A stretch of DNA of 64,000 nt, taken from positions 1,240,001 to 1,304,000 of the forward strand of contig NZ_CP082269.1 in NCBI RefSeq assembly GCF_019880405.1, written 5' to 3'. The stretch is from Enterobacter sp. C2. GTDB lineage: Bacteria > Pseudomonadota > Gammaproteobacteria > Enterobacterales > Enterobacteriaceae. Numbering within the stretch: position 1 is the first letter of the stretch; each line of letters opens with the position of its first letter. The notes under the pieces are model-generated. The model was not told the DNA's origin. It ran no database searches and was given only the letters and a program-made list of their open reading frames with translations. Position numbers and translations under genes: made by a program. Below, piece by piece: positions 10,337 through 20,546 of the stretch.

Positions 10337-11248
10337 ATGCGAGGGAAATTACCGAAAACAGAACTACTCATCACCTTTGAGGCCGTGGCACGCCATGAGA
10401 GCTATACCCGTGCCGCAGAGGAGCTGGCCTTGACCCAAAGCGCAGTGTTTCGCCAGATGGCGTCGCTTGAAGATTTTTTGAATACCGAGCTGTTCAGTCA
10501 TGCCAAAAAACGTATTTTCCTCAACGACGCGGGGAAATACTATCTCGACATGGTCAAAGATACATTAAATAAATTTGAGCGTGATACCCATGCTATTATG
10601 ACCTGGCAGCCGACGTCACGAATTGTTGAGCTGGCCGTTAACCCCACGCTGAGCACCCACTGGCTTATTCCCAAGCTTGGCGAGTTTACTAAATGCTATC
10701 CCGATATCGTGGTGAATATTAACTCACTGGCAAGCGTCGGGGATTTTCTTAATCGCGGCTACGATGCGGCTATAATGCGGGAGGATTTCTGCGCGCCCCT
10801 GGCGCGGGTCGACTCTCTGTTTGAAGAGGAGCTTCTGCCCGTGTGCAGCAGGACGTTGCCTGGCTACACCGGGAAGAAGATAAAGGTGGAGCGGCTGCTG
10901 GATAACTTTACGCTGCTGCATCAGAGCACGCGTATTGAGGGCTGGGCCGAATGGTTCTCCCTCTCCGGTATCAGCAGCCCGAAGGTGAAGCTTGGCCCGC
11001 GTTTCGACCTTATCTCGATGCTGATTGCGGCCGTCCGTTCGAAGCTGGGCGTCGCGCTGCTGCCACGTTTTTCCGTCCAGCACGATCTCGATAACGGCAG
11101 CATGGTCATTCCCTGTGACGTGCCCATGCGTACCGGCAATCGCTTTATACTGACGTGGCGGGACGACGGGGTGGCGTCGGGCGGAATGCTGCTCTTCCGC
11201 GACTGGCTGCTAAAAAAGTCAGCGGCCGAGCAGCACGCGCTATTTTAG
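10337..11248 (+). CDS. LysR-family transcriptional regulator (GcvA-like)
   Basis: A 303-residue LysR-type regulator: winged helix-turn-helix at about residues 9-68 ([19 protein letters not shown] as recognition region) and a periplasmic-binding-protein-like effector domain at about 95-295. The ATG at 10337 follows a good ribosome site (GGGAGG). It is oriented towards the glutamate/methylaspartate genes and ends inside the last of them, overlapping the fumarase 3' end by 9 bases on the opposite strand. By position it probably controls that locus; the inducer is unknown, with glutamate, methylaspartate or mesaconate as reasonable candidates. Confidence 0.8.
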
Positions 11249-12898
11249 ACTCTGTGACGAGCAGAGGTTACAGCCGTGACGCTGTTCAAACTGCTGGTAA
11301 AAGTTATTACCTTTGTCATCCACCAGGATAAACGCAGGCATATCTTTTACCTCCATCATCCATACCGCCTCCATGCCCAGTTCGGCATACTCCAGGCAGC
11401 GCAGGCTGCGGACATAGTCCTGCGCCAGCAGGGCCGCTGCGCCACCGATGCTACCGAGGTTAAACCCGCCGTGTCTGGCGCAGGCGTCGGTCACCTGCTG
11501 GCTGCGGTTGCCTTTTGACAGCATCATCAGGCTCCCGCCAGCGGCTTGAAAGGCATCTACATAACCATCCATCCGGCCACCGGTCGTGGGGCCCAGCGAT
11601 CCCGCAATGCCACCTTCCGGCGTTTTAGCCGGGCCAGCGTAATAAACAACATAGTGCTTCATGTAGTCCGGCAGAGCCACACCCGCATCCAGCCTGGCCT
11701 TGAGCCTGGCATGGGCGATATCCCGGGCAACAACCAGCGGGCCGCTTAAAGAGAGGCGCGTGCCCACTGGATAGCGCGATAGCTCGTGCATAACCTCGCG
11801 TAGCGGTCGGTTGAGGTCGATTCTGACACCCACGCTGTCGCCAGGCATACGCAGTTTCTCAGGAATAAACCGTCCTGGGTCGTGCTCCAGTTTCTCCAGC
11901 CAGATCCCATGACGATTGATTTTTCCCTTGATGTTGCGGTCGGCGGAGCAGGAGAGGGCGAGTGCAATCGGGCAGGAGCCGCCGTGCCGCGGCAGACGTA
12001 TTACCCGCATGTCGTGAGCAAAATACTTACCGCCAAACTGAGCGCCAATGCCCAACTCCCGGCTGGCGTTAAGCAGCGTTGACTCCAGGTGCAGATCGCG
12101 AAACGCCTGGCCAAGCTCGTTACCACTGGTGGGCAGCGTATCGTAATACTTCGTCGATGCCAGTTTTGCTACTTTCATGGCCTGCTCGGGGGACGTTCCG
12201 CCAATGACGAAAGCAATATGGTACGGCGGACAGGCAGCGGTACCGAGTGTCTGCATTTTCGCTATCAAAAAGGGGACCAGCTTCTCTGGATCAAGAATGG
12301 ATTTGGTCTCCTGAAACAGCGCCGCTTTATTAGCCGAGCCGCCACCTTTGTTAATAAACAGAAATTTATAGTCGTCCCCTGGCGTTGCCGCAATATCAAT
12401 CTGCGCGGGCAGATTCGTGCCGGTGTTCACCTCAGTGTACATATCCAGCGGTGCGTTTTGTGAGTAGCGCAGGCTATGTTCCTGAAAGGTTTCGTAGATG
12501 CCCAGACTTAACGCCTCGGCATCGTTACAGCCGGTCCAGATTGACTGCCCTTTTTCGGCTACGATGGTCGCAGTGCCGGTATCCTGACAGTAGGGCAGAA
12601 CACCCTTGGCCGCGACCTCGGCATTACGCAGCAGCTGCAGGGCAACGTAGCGATCGTTTGCACTGGCCTCGCGATCGTGAAGGATAGATGCCACCTGTTT
12701 AATATGGGCGGTGCGTAAGAAAAAGGAGGCCTCGTAAAAAGCCAATTTGGCCAGCAGCGTTAATCCTTTTGGATCCACGGTAATTAGCGTTCTGTTATCT
12801 TCTTCGTTAACCGAAACATACTGGTCGCTAAGCAGATAATATTCAGTTGGGTCTTTATCATGCGGAAAAGGATCTTGTCAGATAAAAGGTTTATTCAT
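11240..12898 (-). CDS. class I fumarase/mesaconase with in-frame TGA at codon 7
   Basis: Class I iron-sulfur fumarase of the FumA/FumB type. The three cluster cysteine contexts ([24 protein letters not shown]) and the C-terminal domain ([21 protein letters not shown]) are present. Next to methylaspartate ammonia-lyase it is most likely the mesaconase that hydrates mesaconate to citramalate, like FumD in the E. coli O157:H7 methylaspartate locus. The reading frame matches FumA from its first residues, with an ATG at 12896-12898 (MNKPFI), but codon 7 is TGA (12878-12880), where FumA has Tyr; the frame then resumes with [16 protein letters not shown]. The next standard start is GTG at 12776-12778, which would lose about 40 residues and give 512. 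It is thus either a recent nonsense mutant, a read-through gene or a GTG-started shortened enzyme. It lies 24 bases after the symporter gene. Confidence 0.8.
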
Positions 12899-12922: not shown

Positions 12923-14194
12923 TTACAACCGCGCAAGCTGCGATGCTTTCCCACGACAGCCTTCGCCAAAGTGTTCCCCCTCCCAGCGGCTGACCAGCGC
13001 AGCGCCCATGGCGTTACTCATCACGTTGGTAGCAGAGCGGCCCATATCAAGGAAGGGATCGACGCCCATCAGTAGAATTAACCCGGCCTCCGGAATATTG
13101 AACTGGTTGAGGGTGGCGGCGATAACCACCAGCGAGGCGCGCGGTACCCCGGCCATGCCTTTTGAGGTCAGCATCAGAATAAGCAGCATGGTGATCTGCT
13201 CTCCTATGCCAAGGTGAATATTGCAGGCTTGGGCGATAAAAAGGGTGGCGAAGGAGCAGTACGCCATTGAACCAACGAGGTTAAAGGAGTAGCCAATCGG
13301 CAGAACGAAGCTGGCAATTTTTGGCGAGACGCCAAACTTTTCCAGCGCCTTCAGCGTGCCGGGAAAGGCCGCTTCCGAGCTGGAGGTGGTAAACGCCAGC
13401 AGGGCAGGCTCGGAGATCCCCCGGGTTAAGCGGAGAATGCAGGGGCCAATAGTCGCGAAAGAGATACCAATTAAGATGACCCATAGCAGCCCAAGGGTCA
13501 TATAAAACTCGCCCATAAAGATCCCGGCGCTGACCAGCACCCCTAGCCCACGCTCTGCAATCATGGCGGAGATGGCGGCAAACACCGTAAAAGGGGCGAA
13601 GAGCATAACGTAGCCGGTAATTTTGAGCATCACCTCCACCAGCGAGTCCAGCACATGAACGATGGGCGCGCCTTTATCGCCAATCGCCGCTAGCCCGCAG
13701 CCTAAGAAGATGGAGAAGACGACGATCTGCAGCACCTCGTTACGGGCCATAGCGTCAACGATGCTGGTGGGAATGGCATGCGAAATAAAAACCTTGAAAG
13801 TAAAAGGTTCGGCCTTTAGCGCGGCGACGCTGGCGGCGTCATGGGCAACAAAGTTAATTCCGGCACCGGGTTGGAAAACATTGACAATAACCAGGCCTAA
13901 AGCAATAGAGATCAGCGAGGCACAGATAAACAGCAACAGGGTTTTAGAGAAAATGCGCCCCAGCGTTTTGGCATCGCCCATTTTTGCGATCCCAACGACC
14001 AGCGTTGAAATAATTAACGGCGCGATGATCATTTTGATCAGCCGCAGAAATATGGCGGTTAAAATTGAGATGTCTTGCGAGTAGGTTTTTGCCGTTTCAA
14101 CCGTGGCTACGGTATTAATAATAAATCCGGCAATGATACCCAGAATAAGACCCGCGATAATCATCGTGGTTAAGCTTTTCGACTTCATTTTCAC
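12923..14194 (-). CDS. dicarboxylate/amino acid:cation symporter (DAACS family, GltP/DctA-like)
   Basis: A 423-residue inner-membrane transporter of the DAACS family, which takes up glutamate, aspartate or C4-dicarboxylates with H+ or Na+. About eight hydrophobic segments are visible, together with the serine-rich hairpin motif (TTSSSEAAFP, near residue 270) and the later TSKGMAGVPRA and NVMSNAMGA blocks that form the substrate site. In this locus it most likely imports glutamate, the substrate of glutamate mutase; the substrate is inferred. It is separated from the upstream DUF4387 gene by 121 bases containing a hairpin (14270-14291), so it may be partly uncoupled from glmS-mal. Confidence 0.85.
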   Translation of the reverse strand: MKMKSKSLTTMIIAGLILGIIAGFIINTVATVETAKTYSQDISILTAIFLRLIKMIIAPLIISTLVVGIAKMGDAKTLGRIFSKTLLLFICASLISIALGLVIVNVFQPGAGINFVAHDAASVAALKAEPFTFKVFISHAIPTSIVDAMARNEVLQIVVFSIFLGCGLAAIGDKGAPIVHVLDSLVEVMLKITGYVMLFAPFTVFAAISAMIAERGLGVLVSAGIFMGEFYMTLGLLWVILIGISFATIGPCILRLTRGISEPALLAFTTSSSEAAFPGTLKALEKFGVSPKIASFVLPIGYSFNLVGSMAYCSFATLFIAQACNIHLGIGEQITMLLILMLTSKGMAGVPRASLVVIAATLNQFNIPEAGLILLMGVDPFLDMGRSATNVMSNAMGAALVSRWEGEHFGEGCRGKASQLARL

Positions 14195-14315: not shown

Positions 14316-14633
14316 TTAAATATCAAAAACGATGTCTAATAGCGGCGCGTGCTGCTGAGCGCCATACACGTCGTTGTCTCCTCTGTTACCTGAAACAATA
14401 TCCCTCGGTAAAATGGCTTTGACGGCGTTAGCCGGATCGAACCAAACAATTCGGGGAAGCTGCTGCTCCTCAAGGTTATAGAGGCGCGCAATCAGCTGTG
14501 CGGTAAACTGCCCCGAGGCTTTCACCGCCAGATAGTCGCTTTGCTGTTTGAAGAGAATATCCAGCACCAGCTCATAGGGTCCGGCGTTTTTAGATCGGAT
14601 CACCAGGGCCAACGAACGAATGGTCTGTTTCAT
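14316..14633 (-). CDS. DUF4387-family protein
   Basis: A 105-residue soluble protein resembling the DUF4387 family, which is commonly found beside or downstream of AtuA-like (DUF1446) proteins. No signal peptide or membrane segment is seen; the sequence is mixed alpha/beta with no recognisable catalytic motif. Its ATG overlaps the stop of the AtuA-like gene by 4 bases, so the two are translationally coupled and probably form a complex. Its biochemical role is unknown; the neighbourhood suggests a step after mesaconate or citramalate. Confidence 0.75.
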   Translation of the reverse strand: MKQTIRSLALVIRSKNAGPYELVLDILFKQQSDYLAVKASGQFTAQLIARLYNLEEQQLPRIVWFDPANAVKAILPRDIVSGNRGDNDVYGAQQHAPLLDIVFDI

Positions 14634-16000
14634 GCCACTACTCCTTCCGGCGTGACCTGCTCAAGGACGAAGGGAAACTGCAGCGCCTCGCTGGCCTCAA
14701 TAAGGTGGTAGACCGAGAACTCATAGACCGGGCCGCAAGGGACATCCGAGGGCGAAAAGGGGAATGCCAGGTTACCCGCCGTAGCGATCCGGCCTTCGTA
14801 GCCATAGTGCAGCAGCGTTGAGCGCACCAGCGAGCAGACGCTGTTAGCAAGCTGCTGGTCCGGGGCTACCACGTCGAGAACAATCCCCAGTTCGTGTCCG
14901 GCCTGAGGTACAGGCTCATGCTTACCCATCACGCCGTTTTTGCCGTAAAGGTGGAAAGTAATGCGGATCGCTTCCGCGTTGAGGCTCAGGTTGCTGATGA
15001 CGCTGGACTTCACCTCTTCAAGGATGGTTTCAATTCCGGCAATCATAATGGGATCGCGAACGCCAGCGATGGTCAGGCAGCGATATCCCACCCGTCGGGC
15101 ACCCTCCAGCTTTAGTCGGTAGGGCGTTGTCTCGTGGCGAGAGCCGCTGACGTAGACCTCTCTCTCATTAACCGCTTTAAAAGTACAGGCCTGCAAATTG
15201 AGCACGCCGCCGGGACCCGGCAGAAAATAGGGGTCAGACTTTTCATACAGCGTATGGGCCGCCGCAGAGGTTTCGGTAAACTTCCGCTTGGGGTTAAACA
15301 CTTTCAGGGTGAAACCGTGCTCGTCGAGGATCCCCATAGCGCAATCCGATCCCGATCCCGGCGTGGCGGCGATGGCGGCACACTCAAGGATCTTCCCGCA
15401 GTGCAGCGCCAGCCCCTCGTCAAACCCCTGCATAATAGGCAGCGCCGCAAAACAGGCCGGATCGTAAGCGCGTCCGCCTAATACTACCTGTGCCCCGGCT
15501 GCCAGCGCGCGTTGAAAAGGCTCCACGCCCATCTGCGCGACAAGAGAGGTGCTGTCATCAATATCCTGATGGGTTAACGGCGGCACAAAGTCGAGGGCAG
15601 TGATCTTGCCCGCATCCAGCGCCTGGTGAACGATCTGCTTGTCGACATCTGCCGGGATGGTTGCCAGAGTAAATGAGAGCTGCTCTTCACGAGCAATCTC
15701 CAGCACGATCTCACGACACCACGCGAGATGCGGAGCCGCACCCGAGCCGCCTGCCGTGCCGATAACCACCGGGATGCCCTGTTTAACCCCGGCTGAGATC
15801 ATATAGCGCAGGTCACGCTTCACTCCGGCGCGATCGGTAAAAGGCTTTCCTGCGCCGAGATAGTGCGGGCCCGGATCGGACGAACCTGCATCCACGGCGA
15901 TCAGGTTCGGGGATTCAGCCAGCGCGCTTAAAAAGCTCTCTTCTGGAAAGCCGTAGCCGAGGATGGCGGTCGGCGACAGGATCTTAAAGGTCTTAGCCAT
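14630..16000 (-). CDS. AtuA-like acyclic terpene utilisation family protein (DUF1446)
   Basis: A 456-residue cytoplasmic protein of the AtuA/DUF1446 family. Conserved family features include the N-terminal ILSPTAILGYGF, a glycine-rich segment (GTAGGSGAAPH, about 82-92) and a second (VVLGGRAYDPACFAALP, about 171-187). The name comes from the Pseudomonas terpene-degradation gene atuA, whose reaction is not established as far as I know. Here it follows mal with a 3-base gap and overlaps the DUF4387 gene by 4 bases. Together they are the only enzyme-like genes in the locus without an assigned pathway step, so they are candidates for citramalate activation or cleavage. That is inference. Confidence 0.75.
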   Translation of the reverse strand: MAKTFKILSPTAILGYGFPEESFLSALAESPNLIAVDAGSSDPGPHYLGAGKPFTDRAGVKRDLRYMISAGVKQGIPVVIGTAGGSGAAPHLAWCREIVLEIAREEQLSFTLATIPADVDKQIVHQALDAGKITALDFVPPLTHQDIDDSTSLVAQMGVEPFQRALAAGAQVVLGGRAYDPACFAALPIMQGFDEGLALHCGKILECAAIAATPGSGSDCAMGILDEHGFTLKVFNPKRKFTETSAAAHTLYEKSDPYFLPGPGGVLNLQACTFKAVNEREVYVSGSRHETTPYRLKLEGARRVGYRCLTIAGVRDPIMIAGIETILEEVKSSVISNLSLNAEAIRITFHLYGKNGVMGKHEPVPQAGHELGIVLDVVAPDQQLANSVCSLVRSTLLHYGYEGRIATAGNLAFPFSPSDVPCGPVYEFSVYHLIEASEALQFPFVLEQVTPEGVVA

Positions 16001-16003
16001 CGC

Positions 16004-17245
16004 TTATCCCCTTGCCTGCAGGAGCGCAAGGGTGCGCTGCATTTCGTTAAAGACAATATTAAGACCCTCGTCAAATCCCATGCCGGGTTTGACTAGCATG
16101 CGCATGGGGCGGGCGGCGAGGGCAACATGCACGCAGGTTCTGGCGCTCACCTCTGTCTCATTACAGGTGCCGCCCTGGTAGGCCTCCATGCCATGCTTGT
16201 TGCAGTAGAGCACCGCATCAACAATGTTGTGGATGCTGCCCAGATCGGGCGTTTTGATCTGCACCATGTGGCAGCTGCCAGCATCGGTAAAGTCGACAAT
16301 ATCCTGATACGTGTTGCACCACTCGTCGGCAACGATTTTGACCCCAGAGCCAAGCTTCGTCAGCTCACGGGTAATCGCCGTCAGGAGACGGATCTGATCG
16401 GCTTTGTTACCGGCGTCAACCGGTCCCTCAATATAGAGCGGCAGGCCCTGGGTCTCTTTTTCAAGACTGGCGATATAGTGAGCGCAGCGCTGTGGATCCT
16501 GATCGAAGATCAGGCCGATAGTGCCGTAGACGTCAATGTGCAGGGTAGGGTGGTAGCGCGGGCTAGTGCGTAGCGTCATGACACGATTTGCCAGCCAACG
16601 CACATAGTCACGCAGTTTCTCACCGTCGTAGCCCAGCTTCTCTTCCACGTTGTTAATTAGCGCATGGGGCAGAACGTTGATGCCCTTGAGGATCATTTTA
16701 TCAACGGCGATGTAGCGGTCATCTCCGCTCTGGCCAAACAGGGGAATGGGATCGGCAACCGTCGGCAGCTGCCATTCGTCGGCAATAACCTCTGCTTTGA
16801 GTCGGCCCGTTGCCAGCGCGGCGGCGTCCAGCAGCGCCTGCGAGAGGCCATAGCGTACGGCGGTATGCAGCGGTTTACCCTCGATGCGCAGCGTGTCAAA
16901 AAAGCGGGCGTTCGGCAGGAAAGCCTGCACGTCGCGCCCCTCCAGTAGCGGCTTAATATGATCGTTGAGCCACGGAATAAAGGTTGCTGCCAGGAAGAGC
17001 GGGTCGCGCCCACCGGCTCCGGAGTACTGCACCGCCGCACAGTCTCCCACGGCAACGGCACCGTTTTCGAGGATGAGCTGCACGCAAACGCACTCACCGG
17101 CCTGGCGCACCGAGGTAAAGCCTGGCGTTACCGGTTGACCGGTATAGATAAAGCCGTCATGGCCTGCGCCGTTTTTAATGGCCTGCTGATCGTCAAAGTA
17201 GAAGGAGGAGTACCCTGCGGTAAAAAGCGCCTGTTTAATTTTCAT
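16004..17245 (-). CDS. mal: methylaspartate ammonia-lyase
   Basis: Eliminates ammonia from (2S,3S)-3-methylaspartate to give mesaconate. The 413-residue protein belongs to the enolase superfamily. All catalytic residues known from the Clostridium tetanomorphum enzyme are at the same numbers: base Lys331 (MVQIKTPD), His194 (VLPHAL), and the Mg2+ ligands Asp238 (HIDVYG), Glu273 (YIEGP) and Asp307 (VADEW). Its ATG overlaps the glmE stop by 4 bases. The Citrobacter amalonaticus enzyme is a close relative in enterobacteria. Function is assigned with high confidence. Confidence 0.96.
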   Translation of the reverse strand: MKIKQALFTAGYSSFYFDDQQAIKNGAGHDGFIYTGQPVTPGFTSVRQAGECVCVQLILENGAVAVGDCAAVQYSGAGGRDPLFLAATFIPWLNDHIKPLLEGRDVQAFLPNARFFDTLRIEGKPLHTAVRYGLSQALLDAAALATGRLKAEVIADEWQLPTVADPIPLFGQSGDDRYIAVDKMILKGINVLPHALINNVEEKLGYDGEKLRDYVRWLANRVMTLRTSPRYHPTLHIDVYGTIGLIFDQDPQRCAHYIASLEKETQGLPLYIEGPVDAGNKADQIRLLTAITRELTKLGSGVKIVADEWCNTYQDIVDFTDAGSCHMVQIKTPDLGSIHNIVDAVLYCNKHGMEAYQGGTCNETEVSARTCVHVALAARPMRMLVKPGMGFDEGLNIVFNEMQRTLALLQARG

Positions 17246-18690
17246 TCTGGTCTTCCTATTAACTTGCTGTGGGATACGGCATTAATATCGTCAACAACCA
17301 TCTGGAATGAGGCAGGGCGGCGTTCAACGCTGGCGCGTTCGGCAACAAAGTCGTGGTGCATCGCCAGGATGTCATCCGGGAGCGGGACGGCTCCGGCCTC
17401 TAAGATGCGAATAGCGCCTGCGTTATCGCGTACCGGGGTCATCTTGCCGGCGTTACAGGCCGCTGGTGCAAAGGGGATATCCAGCACGCCAGCTTCAAAA
17501 GCCAGCACCGTACCGCGGGCGATATCCCCTTTACCGAGAGCAAAGACGTGGTCTAGTACGGCACGCACTTCGCGTTTGATGAGTTCAACCTCAAGATCGA
17601 CGGCATGACAGGCTGGGAAGGGCTGATCGCGAACCATGTTAAGCATCTGGCGCGACGCCTTAAGCCCCTGGGCATTAGCGGCGGCGGTAGGAATGCCAAA
17701 GGCTTCATGCGGACTTTTGGTAATGACTTTGGTTGCGCCCGCCATGCCGGCGACGGCAGCGCCCCAGGCGATCACGGAAAACGCTTTTGCTTCATCCTCC
17801 GGGAAGCCGCCCATCCACTGATGAAAGACGGTGCTTAGCTCGTAGTCGTCGTAACCCTGCTGACGGAAATAGTCGTGGGACAGTTCACGCAGTGCTTTAA
17901 CCGCAGCAACGTCCTGGGTCAGGCTGCCCACCTGGCCATAGCCAACCGTAATAGAGCGCACGCCCTGTTCCAGCGCCAGTAACCCTTCAATGATGGCAAC
18001 CGCATGCGACATAAACGGCGGGATCAGCGTTCCGGTCAGGGGGCCGAAAGGCTCGCGGTTAATGCGAATGCCATGCTCTTCATACAGGCCAATCAGGCGA
18101 TCGCAGTATTGCCAGTCACGCAGGGATTTTTCGAGCGTGACGCGTTTCGCATAGGGAATGTTGTAAGAGATGCCGCCTCCCTCGTAGCTGGTAAAACCGC
18201 TGGCGAGAGAGATCTCAGCCAGCAGGCGTGCGTCAGGCGTGCCGTGCCGAACCTGGAGCGGTTTTTGCAATGATTCGGTCAGGTGGCGGCAGGCAGCAAC
18301 GCCGTGATTAACCACCGGTAATCCGTTAAGTTTTGAGGTACCTGCCTCAAGAGATTTTTGAATGCCTACTGCGGCATCTTCGTAGCGGTTCAGACGGGTA
18401 TAGGCGTCTATAGTGGTCGGCAGGAGATCGCACTCCTGCTCCAGCACCTTAAGCAGAGCAATATGCTCATCCAGCAGCGCCACGCCCGCGCGGGGTTGGC
18501 TGAGGGTAATACCCTGTTCATCTGCGATACGCAGCGCACGGGCAAAGTTTTTTTCCTCAGGGATGGTCTGCTGGTACTTTACGCCATCTTCGAAATGGGT
18601 AACGTCCTTCCCAGTCGGCCATGTTTCCAGGACACCGTGCCGCTCAGACATGAAATCATCATGGGTTATCTTTTTATTGCTGAGTTCCAT
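17242..18690 (-). CDS. glmE: glutamate mutase (methylaspartate mutase) epsilon subunit GlmE
   Basis: Catalytic TIM-barrel subunit of adenosylcobalamin-dependent glutamate mutase, which rearranges L-glutamate to (2S,3S)-3-methylaspartate together with GlmS. The 482 residues are the family length, with the family blocks YNRLNRYEDA-like, HGTPDARLLAE and EGGGISYNIPY, the last near the substrate arginine region. It lies 6 bases after glmL and overlaps mal by 4. The enzyme needs coenzyme B12, so the host must make or import it. Confidence 0.95.
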   Translation of the reverse strand: MELSNKKITHDDFMSERHGVLETWPTGKDVTHFEDGVKYQQTIPEEKNFARALRIADEQGITLSQPRAGVALLDEHIALLKVLEQECDLLPTTIDAYTRLNRYEDAAVGIQKSLEAGTSKLNGLPVVNHGVAACRHLTESLQKPLQVRHGTPDARLLAEISLASGFTSYEGGGISYNIPYAKRVTLEKSLRDWQYCDRLIGLYEEHGIRINREPFGPLTGTLIPPFMSHAVAIIEGLLALEQGVRSITVGYGQVGSLTQDVAAVKALRELSHDYFRQQGYDDYELSTVFHQWMGGFPEDEAKAFSVIAWGAAVAGMAGATKVITKSPHEAFGIPTAAANAQGLKASRQMLNMVRDQPFPACHAVDLEVELIKREVRAVLDHVFALGKGDIARGTVLAFEAGVLDIPFAPAACNAGKMTPVRDNAGAIRILEAGAVPLPDDILAMHHDFVAERASVERRPASFQMVVDDINAVSHSKLIGRPE

Positions 18691-18696
18691 TCGTTG

Positions 18697-20097
18697 CTAC
18701 CTTGGGTTTGGGGTTAAACAGTGAATGCTGGCAAGCGCAGCCGCCTGGGGATAGAGCCTGGCGGTATTAGCCAGCAGGGGGATCAAGCCGTTCTCATCCC
18801 GGTAGTAGTCGAACCGCGTGGGCAGCAGGATCCGGTTGCCGCGGGCGTCGAGATCGCGGTATTTAAGCCAGCGATGAATATCAAACGTCGCCGCACGGGA
18901 TAGCCAGCCGCCGGAGCCCACCACTTTACGCACCGGGGTGAGGTCACGCCCTATCTGCAGATCGACCGTGCCTGCGCTGGTAGCTACCGCTTTTTTTGTT
19001 CCCGCATGGCGTTCGCTGGCATAGGCCACGCACAGCCCGGCCAGAAGGGCGTCGAAACGGTGCTCTTCAGAGCTAGTGGGCAGTGAGTCGGGGCAGGCAG
19101 CGAGTTTGTTAAGGTAGCGGTAGAACGCGGCGCGCAAGTCGGGCTGCATGGCAAAGAGCGAGTCAATAAGCGCCCGAGTGCTTTCGCCGACCACCGCCGC
19201 AGAGACGCGCATTCCTAAGTCGCCCTCAACGGTGCGTTTTACAAAGGGTTCAGGCAGGCCGTGAAGAACGGTATCCGGAGAGAGAGTATTAGTGCAGGCG
19301 GAGTAGACGTCGGTGGTTGCGCCTCCCATATCAATCAGCATGAACGATTGCCAGGCATCGTCATGCTGGCTCATCAGCTTGACCAGTTCAAAGACCGTCC
19401 ACGGCGTAGGCATGGGGGTTTCACCCGTCTCATCCACAATAACGTCCAGTCCTTTCCCCTTTACAATGCGTGAGAGGAAGATGTCACAGATCGCCTGGCG
19501 AGCGGGGAGGGGGTTAGGTGAATCCAGTTCGGGAAGAATGTTATCCACGACGGTGAGCTGCTTATGGGCCAACAGCTGCTGAACCTCGTGCTGAATATCG
19601 CGGTTTCCGGCGTAGACAATGGCACAATCGAGTTCAGCCGTAGCAAGCAGCCGTGCGTTGTTCAGGCCATAGCGCGTCTCTCCGCCATCGGTTCCGCCAG
19701 CAAACAGCAGAATATCGGGCGGTGATGCCTCAAGCTGGCGAATATCCTGTGGCGTCAGCGCATAAGCATAGTACTGGGCGATTTTTGCTCCTGCCGAATG
19801 CGCAGTAACCTTCGCAGCCTCGAGCGTAATGGAGGGCACCAGACCCATCGCGGCGACGGCCAATCCGCCTTTAGCCGAGGAGGAGTATTTCAGCGTAACG
19901 TCGCCCCGTCTGAGCAGCGGTCTGGCATTGGCGACCTCTAACAGGTGGTGCAGGCAGGTAAAAAAACCTTCAGCAAGATGATGAGTGGTGGTTGGCGTGA
20001 CCGCCTGGTTAAGAAGCCGCAGCCTATTTTCACCTTCAATTTCAAAAAGCGCGGCCTTGGTCCAGGTTGAGCCAATATCAACGGATACCGTACGCAT
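18697..20097 (-). CDS. glmL: glutamate mutase accessory/reactivating protein GlmL (MutL)
   Basis: ASKHA-fold ATPase encoded between the two glutamate mutase subunits, thought to reactivate the enzyme by exchanging damaged cobalamin. The N-terminal phosphate-binding motif VDIGSTWTKAALFE and a second glycine-rich motif (LIDMGGATTDVYSA, near residue 235) are visible. The start at 20097 (MRTVSVDIG) fits the family; the reading frame is open for ten more residues upstream, but those lie inside glmS. One base overlaps the glmS stop. The symbol mutL used in some databases is unrelated to mismatch repair. Confidence 0.92.
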   Translation of the reverse strand: MRTVSVDIGSTWTKAALFEIEGENRLRLLNQAVTPTTTHHLAEGFFTCLHHLLEVANARPLLRRGDVTLKYSSSAKGGLAVAAMGLVPSITLEAAKVTAHSAGAKIAQYYAYALTPQDIRQLEASPPDILLFAGGTDGGETRYGLNNARLLATAELDCAIVYAGNRDIQHEVQQLLAHKQLTVVDNILPELDSPNPLPARQAICDIFLSRIVKGKGLDVIVDETGETPMPTPWTVFELVKLMSQHDDAWQSFMLIDMGGATTDVYSACTNTLSPDTVLHGLPEPFVKRTVEGDLGMRVSAAVVGESTRALIDSLFAMQPDLRAAFYRYLNKLAACPDSLPTSSEEHRFDALLAGLCVAYASERHAGTKKAVATSAGTVDLQIGRDLTPVRKVVGSGGWLSRAATFDIHRWLKYRDLDARGNRILLPTRFDYYRDENGLIPLLANTARLYPQAAALASIHCLTPNPR

Positions 20098-20546
20098 TAC
20101 ACAACCTCTTCCGACTGCGGGCGGCAATTAGTTAATTTATTGTTAATGTCGGTGGCGATTAATTCACAAACGTCTTCCAAATCGTGACTCGGAGAAAAAA
20201 CACGGTCGAAACCCATCTCTTTAAATTTGTGCTCTACTTCAACAAAATCATGTTTGCCGACCACGAGGTTGCCCCCGACATAAAGTAAAATCTCACCGAC
20301 CCCACGCTCGATGCAGCGTTCACGTAAGCCGAGACAGTCAATATCGCCGTGACCGTAAATAGAGGAGACCACAATAGCATCGGCCCCAGTTTCGATAGCG
20401 GCGTCAATGTACTCATCCTGGCTGACCATGACCCCGAGATTGATCACTTGAAAATGGTGGGTGGTAAAAACGCGATCCAGCACTTTGTTGCCGACGGCAT
20501 GACAGTCGGCACCAATTACGCCAATAACGAGCGTTGATTTTTTCAT
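20097..20546 (-). CDS. glmS: glutamate mutase sigma subunit GlmS (B12-binding)
   Basis: Cobalamin-binding subunit of glutamate mutase. The 149-residue product has the flavodoxin-like B12 fold with DxHxxG (residues DCHAVG, supplying the lower axial His) near position 14, VVSSIYGHG and the YVGGNL glycine pair. The start at 20546 (MKKSTLVIG) has an AGAGGATG ribosome site 8 bases upstream; longer in-frame starts lack family support. First gene of the minus-strand operon. This symbol also names the unrelated glucosamine-6-phosphate synthase. Confidence 0.95.
   Translation of the reverse strand: MKKSTLVIGVIGADCHAVGNKVLDRVFTTHHFQVINLGVMVSQDEYIDAAIETGADAIVVSSIYGHGDIDCLGLRERCIERGVGEILLYVGGNLVVGKHDFVEVEHKFKEMGFDRVFSPSHDLEDVCELIATDINNKLTNCRPQSEEVV

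Follow-up and report, generated by a model that had tools for sequence, protein, structure and literature searches.

Genes of the operon

The window, which is the whole 64,000-nucleotide stretch of DNA that was analysed, contains a reverse-strand operon of glutamate mutase and 3-methylaspartate ammonia-lyase genes followed by an AtuA-like/DUF4387 gene pair, and a divergent regulator gene lies at its far end. The genes are as follows (window positions; scores from Pfam and NCBIfam models).

10337-11248, forward strand: divergent LysR-type regulator gene (PF00126 and PF03466)
11240-12898, reverse strand: fumD, class I fumarase/mesaconase gene, interrupted (PF05681/PF05683)
12923-14194, reverse strand: sodium:dicarboxylate/amino-acid symporter, GltP-like (PF00375, 357 bits; GltP equivalog cut-off not reached)
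14316-14633, reverse strand: cmlB, DUF4387 gene, very probably the citramalate lyase small subunit (PF14330; PDB match; 105 aa)
14630-16000, reverse strand: cmlA, AtuA/DUF1446 gene, very probably the citramalate lyase large subunit (PF07287; PDB match; 456 aa)
16004-17245, reverse strand: mal, 3-methylaspartate ammonia-lyase (TIGR01502 equivalog, 543.7 bits, cut-off 286)
17242-18690, reverse strand: glmE, glutamate mutase epsilon subunit (TIGR01503, 802 bits, cut-off 390)
18697-20100, reverse strand: glmL, glutamate mutase reactivation/accessory protein (NF040745, 496.8 bits, cut-off 475)
20097-20546, reverse strand: glmS, glutamate mutase B12-binding subunit (TIGR01501, 234 bits, cut-off 135.8)

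The two open reading frames of the pair that were given in the preliminary description of this DNA are present, and cmlA and cmlB overlap by exactly 4 bases, with cmlA starting 3 bases after mal. Its account of glmS, glmL, glmE, mal, the symporter, the fumarase and the LysR gene also holds, except that fumD is interrupted by an in-frame stop. When this gene was read in three frames against an intact relative, the stop was located at the seventh codon, and the remainder of 512 aa is open from 12778. Intact fumD genes occur in relatives such as Pseudescherichia vulneris, and in the strain itself the reading frames for CmlA, CmlB and Mal are uninterrupted and their products well conserved. A second class I fumarase gene is located at 1,966,011 of the host genome and could take over from the interrupted fumD. 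We presume that the symporter serves substrate uptake and, from its position, that the LysR gene regulates the operon. The closest named relative is the locus of P. vulneris NBRC 102420, one of 80 loci compared, with identities of 99% for Mal, 98% for AtuA and 95% for DUF4387.

A citramalate lyase gene had been described as absent, and our search agrees with this. The Pfam scan of the operon proteins found no CitF (PF04223), CitE or CitD and no CoA-transferase, CoA ligase or carrier protein. The host genome, which is complete (4,258,836 bases in one contig), contains a single AtuA-family gene and one HpcH/HpaI aldolase gene over the cut-off, far off at 549,659, and no CitF; therefore, CmlAB is the only candidate here of a known citramalate lyase kind.

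Identity of the CmlA and CmlB proteins

In the Pfam scan, CmlA scored 79.4 bits against the AtuA family PF07287 (cut-off 22.8) and CmlB scored 121.9 bits against the DUF4387 family PF14330 (cut-off 27), while no NCBIfam model matches either protein. Each protein has one strong sequence match in the PDB, and both matches fall in the same two entries, 9ERQ and 9EVF. CmlA aligned with chain A, "Citramalate lyase, subunit A (cmlA)", at 884 bits, and CmlB with chain B, "Citramalate lyase, subunit B (cmlB)", at 155 bits; each alignment spans the entire protein and is free of gaps. Entry 9EVF, released on 2025-10-08, has the title "Citramalate lyase - ADP - pyruvate complex", and the function of the crystallised proteins is taken here from the depositors' names and titles. 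The two entries together contain four A-type and four B-type chains. The CmlA of E. coli strain 2D is closer to the crystallised protein (973 bits) than the CmlA of the window, and is not identical with it.

The predicted structures agree with these matches. When we superposed the CmlA model (alignment A2, 36 sequences; pLDDT 92.3) on 9EVF_A, the TM-score was 0.97 and the Z-score 56.9, and the CmlB model (alignment A3, 33 sequences; pLDDT 94.6) superposed on 9EVF_B with a TM-score of 0.96 and a Z-score of 19.3. The identities to 9EVF in the structure comparison were 84-85% for CmlA and 71% for CmlB. Besides 9EVF, no PDB entry matched either model with an E-value below 0.001. We also considered remote folds. 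For CmlA, the remaining rows span mostly residues 304-426, the ferredoxin-like C-terminal part, with Z-scores of at most 9.3, and are uninformative on function; for CmlB, all remaining rows have Z-scores of 6.5 or lower.

The 28 invariant positions of CmlA in alignment A2 include K203, E206, C207, H249, Y252, E253, K297 and E299, and those of CmlB in alignment A3 include R13, S14, K15, D25, K72, R77 and D88. Comparison of the two alignments by eye with the 9ERQ chains showed that the eight CmlA residues named and R13, S14, K15, D25, K72 and D88 of CmlB are kept here. Judging from the sequence alignments, these residues may be catalytic. In addition, RSKNAGP and DVYGAQQHAPLL in CmlB are sequence marks that may separate the enzyme from other DUF4387 proteins.

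Probable last step of a glutamate pathway

Based on these observations, we conclude that the AtuA-like and DUF4387 genes very probably encode a two-subunit citramalate lyase, CmlAB, which has no sequence relation to the classical citrate/citramalate lyase with its three parts and splits (S)-citramalate into pyruvate and acetate. Part of the basis comes from others through database titles, according to which orthologous chains of both kinds, named citramalate lyase, were crystallised together with ADP and pyruvate. The other part was obtained here and consists of the orthology of both chains, the matching folds, the fixed pairing, the place after mal and the replacement of other citramalate-cleaving gene sets. 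The proposed pathway would run from glutamate through 3-methylaspartate, mesaconate and (S)-citramalate to pyruvate and acetate, with CmlAB as its last step. The step after citramalate, for which the preliminary description had put the pair forward as a candidate, is thus filled by it according to the PDB names of both chains, and the gene-order data given below agree independently. The substrates suggested there were mesaconate, citramalate and the CoA derivatives of these acids. From this list citramalate is retained, on the grounds of the PDB names, the pyruvate in the title of 9EVF and the gene order, while the CoA esters find no counterpart in the operon, which has no gene for a CoA-transferase, a CoA ligase or a CitE-like protein.

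As for the mechanism, we infer that (S)-citramalate is split in a retro-aldol reaction, at the bond that joins its carbinol carbon to the CH2-COO(-) arm. The cleavage by CmlAB would involve neither a bound ACP arm nor a CoA ester, since CmlAB operons lack the genes for either. Both subunits would be needed, forming one two-subunit enzyme, because the genes are coupled throughout and the chain numbers are equal in the crystals. Since there are no CoA or carrier genes and no similarity to CitD, CitE or CitF, the acetate arm must leave differently from both thioester routes.

The paper by Kronen and Berg (2015, PMC4682846) sets out the question to which this enzyme belongs. As described there, FumD of the E. 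coli O157:H7 cluster hydrates mesaconate to (S)-citramalate, and FumA and FumB of E. coli hydrate mesaconate at 4% and 19% of the efficiency with fumarate. In the same paper, the DUF1446 gene after mal is called a protein of unknown function and the fate of citramalate is left open; extracts of E. coli ATCC 700728 are reported to show no citramalate lyase activity, which counts against the proposed step, although methylaspartate ammonia-lyase was not detectable in them either. This published question is apparently answered in the PDB entries. In the open full-text literature, a scope that leaves most subscription journals outside, we found no paper on the CmlAB citramalate lyase and none that joins the question with the entries.

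A word-11 search matched the mal-cmlA-cmlB stretch in 1,081 of 5,426 complete E. coli genomes, and in 1,080 of these the match covered at least 80% of the stretch. A megablast search of the operon against E. coli gave no match, which reflects a limit of sensitivity, because the word-11 search did find matches. Since the E. coli pair is annotated only as AtuA/DUF4387 among the matches listed, a complete route from glutamate to pyruvate and acetate goes unrecognised in many gut bacteria.

Gene-order survey of mal loci

If CmlAB is the lyase, it is expected where other organisms keep another citramalate-cleaving system. Co-occurrence of the pair with mal, which the preliminary description had named as a point to survey, was found in 110 of 140 mal loci. 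None of these 110 loci also contains CitDEF, while the others contain CitDEF (7 loci), a CoA-transferase with a CitE-like lyase (6), a CoA ligase with a CitE-like lyase (1) or none of these (16). The survey combined two sets, which have no identical Mal protein in common. For the named set, public genomes were scanned with a Mal alignment, 80 of 351 relatives were kept, and the gene classes were checked by Pfam on representatives. CmlAB is present in 68 of the 80 loci, and genes for CitF, CitE-like lyases and class III CoA-transferases are absent from all 68. The 12 loci without CmlAB comprise three with CitDEF (Thermobrachium and two of Caloramator), six with a class III CoA-transferase and a CitE-like lyase, one (L108) with a CoA ligase and a CitE-like lyase, and two (L087 and L110) with none. 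Because much of the named set is enterobacterial, the locus counts are not independent events. For the second set, 348 Bacillota genomes (the phylum of Thermobrachium) yielded 71 Mal places over the cut-off, and in the 60 examined there were 42 with CmlAB, 4 with CitF, 0 with both and 14 with neither. One of the 14, L145, lies on a contig that ends 688 bases past mal. The 14 loci indicate that mal does not always need a lyase next door.

CmlAB follows mal in Pseudomonadota, Spirochaetota, Acidobacteriota, Lentisphaerota and Bacillota, and when the mal-linked label is placed on a tree built from 70 CmlA proteins, 4 changes suffice, compared with 17.6 in shuffles. A CoA-ligase match occurs in 8 of the 68 CmlAB loci of the named set; in one of these eight, L080, the match is on the opposite strand, past the LysR gene and at the place of sucD in E. 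coli, and it was not counted against the exclusion.

Several loci deserve separate mention. In L087, which comes from a metagenome assembly of Enterobacteriaceae, glmS-glmL-glmE-mal and the symporter are retained while cmlAB is missing between them, a natural deletion. The Sedimentisphaerales locus L108 (11271-14280) has genes for a CoA ligase of two subunits and for a CitE-like lyase after mal, apparently one more way of cleaving citramalate, driven by ATP. In the 14 Bacillota loci with neither lyase, the genes after mal often include one whose beginning resembles a 2-hydroxyglutaryl-CoA dehydratase component and one whose beginning resembles a BcrAD/BadFG-type activator; such dehydratase-like and activator-like genes stand after mal, with no CmlAB or CitF, in L149, L150, L153, L159, L167, L173 and L177. 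Relatives of these genes are also found in some CmlAB loci (L146 and L158, Pfam-checked there). Moreover, 55 of the 140 mal loci encode, often directly after cmlB, an uncharacterised protein that is about 310 aa long, contains the Walker A motif GAGKS and has a C-terminal part resembling an alanyl-tRNA editing domain. Examples are L101:12911-13858, L107:5807-6751, L170:13147-14082, L108:14366-15307 and L149:10621-11589, and the protein is absent from the enterobacterial mal loci examined. For its representative from L170, neither Pfam nor NCBIfam gave a match, and nothing in the PDB matched with an E-value better than 0.1.

Genome-level comparison and plasmid copies

We then asked whether CmlAB and CitF exclude each other in whole genomes, and this idea had to be dropped: CitF lies elsewhere in 10 of the 27 CmlAB genomes tested, where it is presumably an ordinary citrate lyase, and the exclusion holds for loci only. 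The other 17 genomes, several of which are metagenome assemblies, have no CitF.

Plasmids carry the pair in more than one setting. Klebsiella plasmids account for 12 of the 49 plasmid records with a CmlA relative, and their pair is 55% identical to the CmlA of the window. In the one Klebsiella plasmid that we opened, the conjugative pM7a (L134:7989-17323), CmlAB is followed by genes for an aldehyde dehydrogenase, a short-chain dehydrogenase (SDR), an alcohol dehydrogenase, an aldehyde dehydrogenase and a class I fumarase, with a LysR gene of its own and without glm or mal. Compared with their counterparts in the Mesorhizobium mal locus L099, the CmlA of this operon has 61% identity and the fumarase 56%. 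The combination of CmlAB with a fumarase that may act as mesaconase, without the glutamate genes, suggests citramalate as the intermediate in common, and the operon possibly serves the oxidation of a C5 compound to mesaconate and then to citramalate. A conjugative Salmonella plasmid (L135:4458-15602) carries the whole operon plus glutaminase and cobO genes.

Alternative explanations

The ADP in 9EVF suggests that a nucleotide may take part in the reaction. In a nucleotide-dependent version, which refines the reading of CmlAB as citramalate lyase and does not oppose it, ATP would phosphorylate the CH2-COO(-) arm of citramalate, the acyl phosphate would give pyruvate and acetyl phosphate, and the phosphate would return to ADP or be lost; the acyl phosphate would thus replace the acetyl thioester of CitDEF. 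Such a version is favoured by the title of 9EVF as a complex of citramalate lyase with ADP and pyruvate, and by the poor quality of free acetate as a leaving group in an operon without ACP or CoA machinery for its activation. However, the ADP may be a crystallisation additive or a mimic, CmlA and CmlB match no kinase or ATP-grasp family in the Pfam scan, and the remote fold matches of CmlA are confined to its ferredoxin-like C-terminal part. Acetate kinase was likewise not found among the recurrent neighbour clusters that were identified, which are part of all clusters. We regard participation of an acyl phosphate as possible but rather unlikely. The same ADP would have another meaning if CmlAB acted on a CoA ester, citramalyl-CoA or mesaconyl-CoA, and the ADP of the crystal occupied the site for the ADP part of CoA. 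One paper indeed assigns a CoA-ester substrate to AtuA of terpene catabolism, but the operon has no CoA-transferase or CoA ligase, and in the named set of 80 the class III CoA-transferase with the CitE-like lyase is confined to mal loci without CmlAB, so that we consider action on a CoA ester improbable. In three Bacillota loci, a weak CoA-transferase match (23-25%) stands beside CmlAB.

Two further explanations were considered. According to Kronen and Berg, FumD-derived citramalate can be used for isoleucine synthesis only after epimerisation, and CmlAB might be the (S)/(R)-citramalate epimerase of the route that they raised. The name of the PDB entries and the pyruvate in the title of 9EVF speak against an epimerase, as does the replacement by CmlAB of C-C lyases in otherwise equal operons, and we give this idea very little credence. 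It is just as hard to believe that the pair serves some unrelated pathway and is only a companion of mal: although most AtuA/DUF4387 pairs in the phylum sample are found elsewhere, several of them beside tricarboxylate or citrate transporters, the pair is kept after mal across at least the phyla named above and in 110 of the 140 loci surveyed. The preferred reading of CmlAB is that of an (S)-citramalate lyase independent of ACP and CoA.

Wider AtuA/DUF4387 family

In other Pseudomonadota genomes, 23 of 24 DUF4387 genes have a full AtuA-like partner, adjoining or fused, and the 24th (L041) has only a fragment match of 92 aa. Most of the pairs in this phylum sample are not beside mal, and therefore the family is wider than the citramalate reaction. 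Pairs adjoin TctABC tricarboxylate transporters in L047-L051 (by clustering; Pfam-checked in L047), the CitMHS citrate transporter in L043 and L046 (Pfam-checked in L043) and aconitase in L040 and L046 (Pfam-checked in L040). These pairs without mal would probably be lyases for other citrate-like hydroxy acids. AtuA itself is listed as an acetate-releasing lyase acting on a tertiary 3-hydroxy acid in the form of a CoA ester (PMC4847356). This assignment serves as a lead only, because a review gives the same step of the terpene pathway to LiuE (PMC4097962).

The probable identity of CmlAB prompts one to ask which substrates other AtuA/DUF4387 pairs split. A speculative answer, to which we give a low probability, is that AtuA/DUF4387 proteins form a superfamily of ACP- and CoA-independent acetate-releasing lyases for tertiary hydroxy acids, in which a bound adenine nucleotide would activate the leaving carboxylate as an acyl phosphate. 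Its members would be CmlAB (citramalate), AtuA (3-hydroxy-3-isohexenylglutaryl-CoA) and the pairs linked to TctABC, CitMHS or aconitase (citrate-like acids). If this were true, acetate could leave in a retro-aldol reaction by a third route, through a nucleotide-linked acyl phosphate, in addition to the two that use ACP and CoA thioesters.

Comparison with known systems

The ACP-type citrate/citramalate lyase CitDEF carries out the same overall reaction as proposed for CmlAB. The clostridial CitDEF is also alike in place, as it sits after mal in the Thermobrachium and Caloramator loci. It differs from CmlAB in having three subunits instead of two, and CmlAB has no carrier subunit with its AGxxES motif. 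We considered whether CmlB is related to the CitD carrier, with which it shares an AG..E...DI-like stretch, and whether CmlA is related to CitF or CitE, and rejected both ideas: the hhalign probabilities were 0.2% for CmlB-CitD, 0.4% for CmlA-CitF and 0.3% for CmlA-CitE. The CitE-like (citramalyl-CoA) lyase that occurs with a class III CoA-transferase belongs to the HpcH/HpaI family and acts on CoA esters. In Alphaproteobacteria, Marinobacter and Glaciecola this gene set takes the same position after mal, while it is absent from the operon of the window. AtuA of acyclic terpene utilisation shares the Pfam family PF07287 with CmlA, but differs in its assigned, disputed CoA-ester substrate and in having no glm or mal, and no Atu partners of the geranyl-CoA carboxylase type were found among the nine operon and regulator proteins scanned.

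Within the enterobacteria, the glm-mal-DUF1446-fumD cluster of E. coli O157:H7 has the same gene set, as judged from text and figure legends (PMC4682846), and the cluster of E. coli strain 2D has the same gene order as the window and adjoins sucD. Some enteric copies of the cluster add glsA and/or cobO, neither of which is in the operon of the window. The closest likeness is to the CmlAB of 9ERQ and 9EVF, to which both chains correspond over the full length without gaps, with the same fold and two subunits of the same lengths, so that the differences are in sequence only. CmlAB of the window is thus a member of a recently named kind of enzyme and not a new kind.
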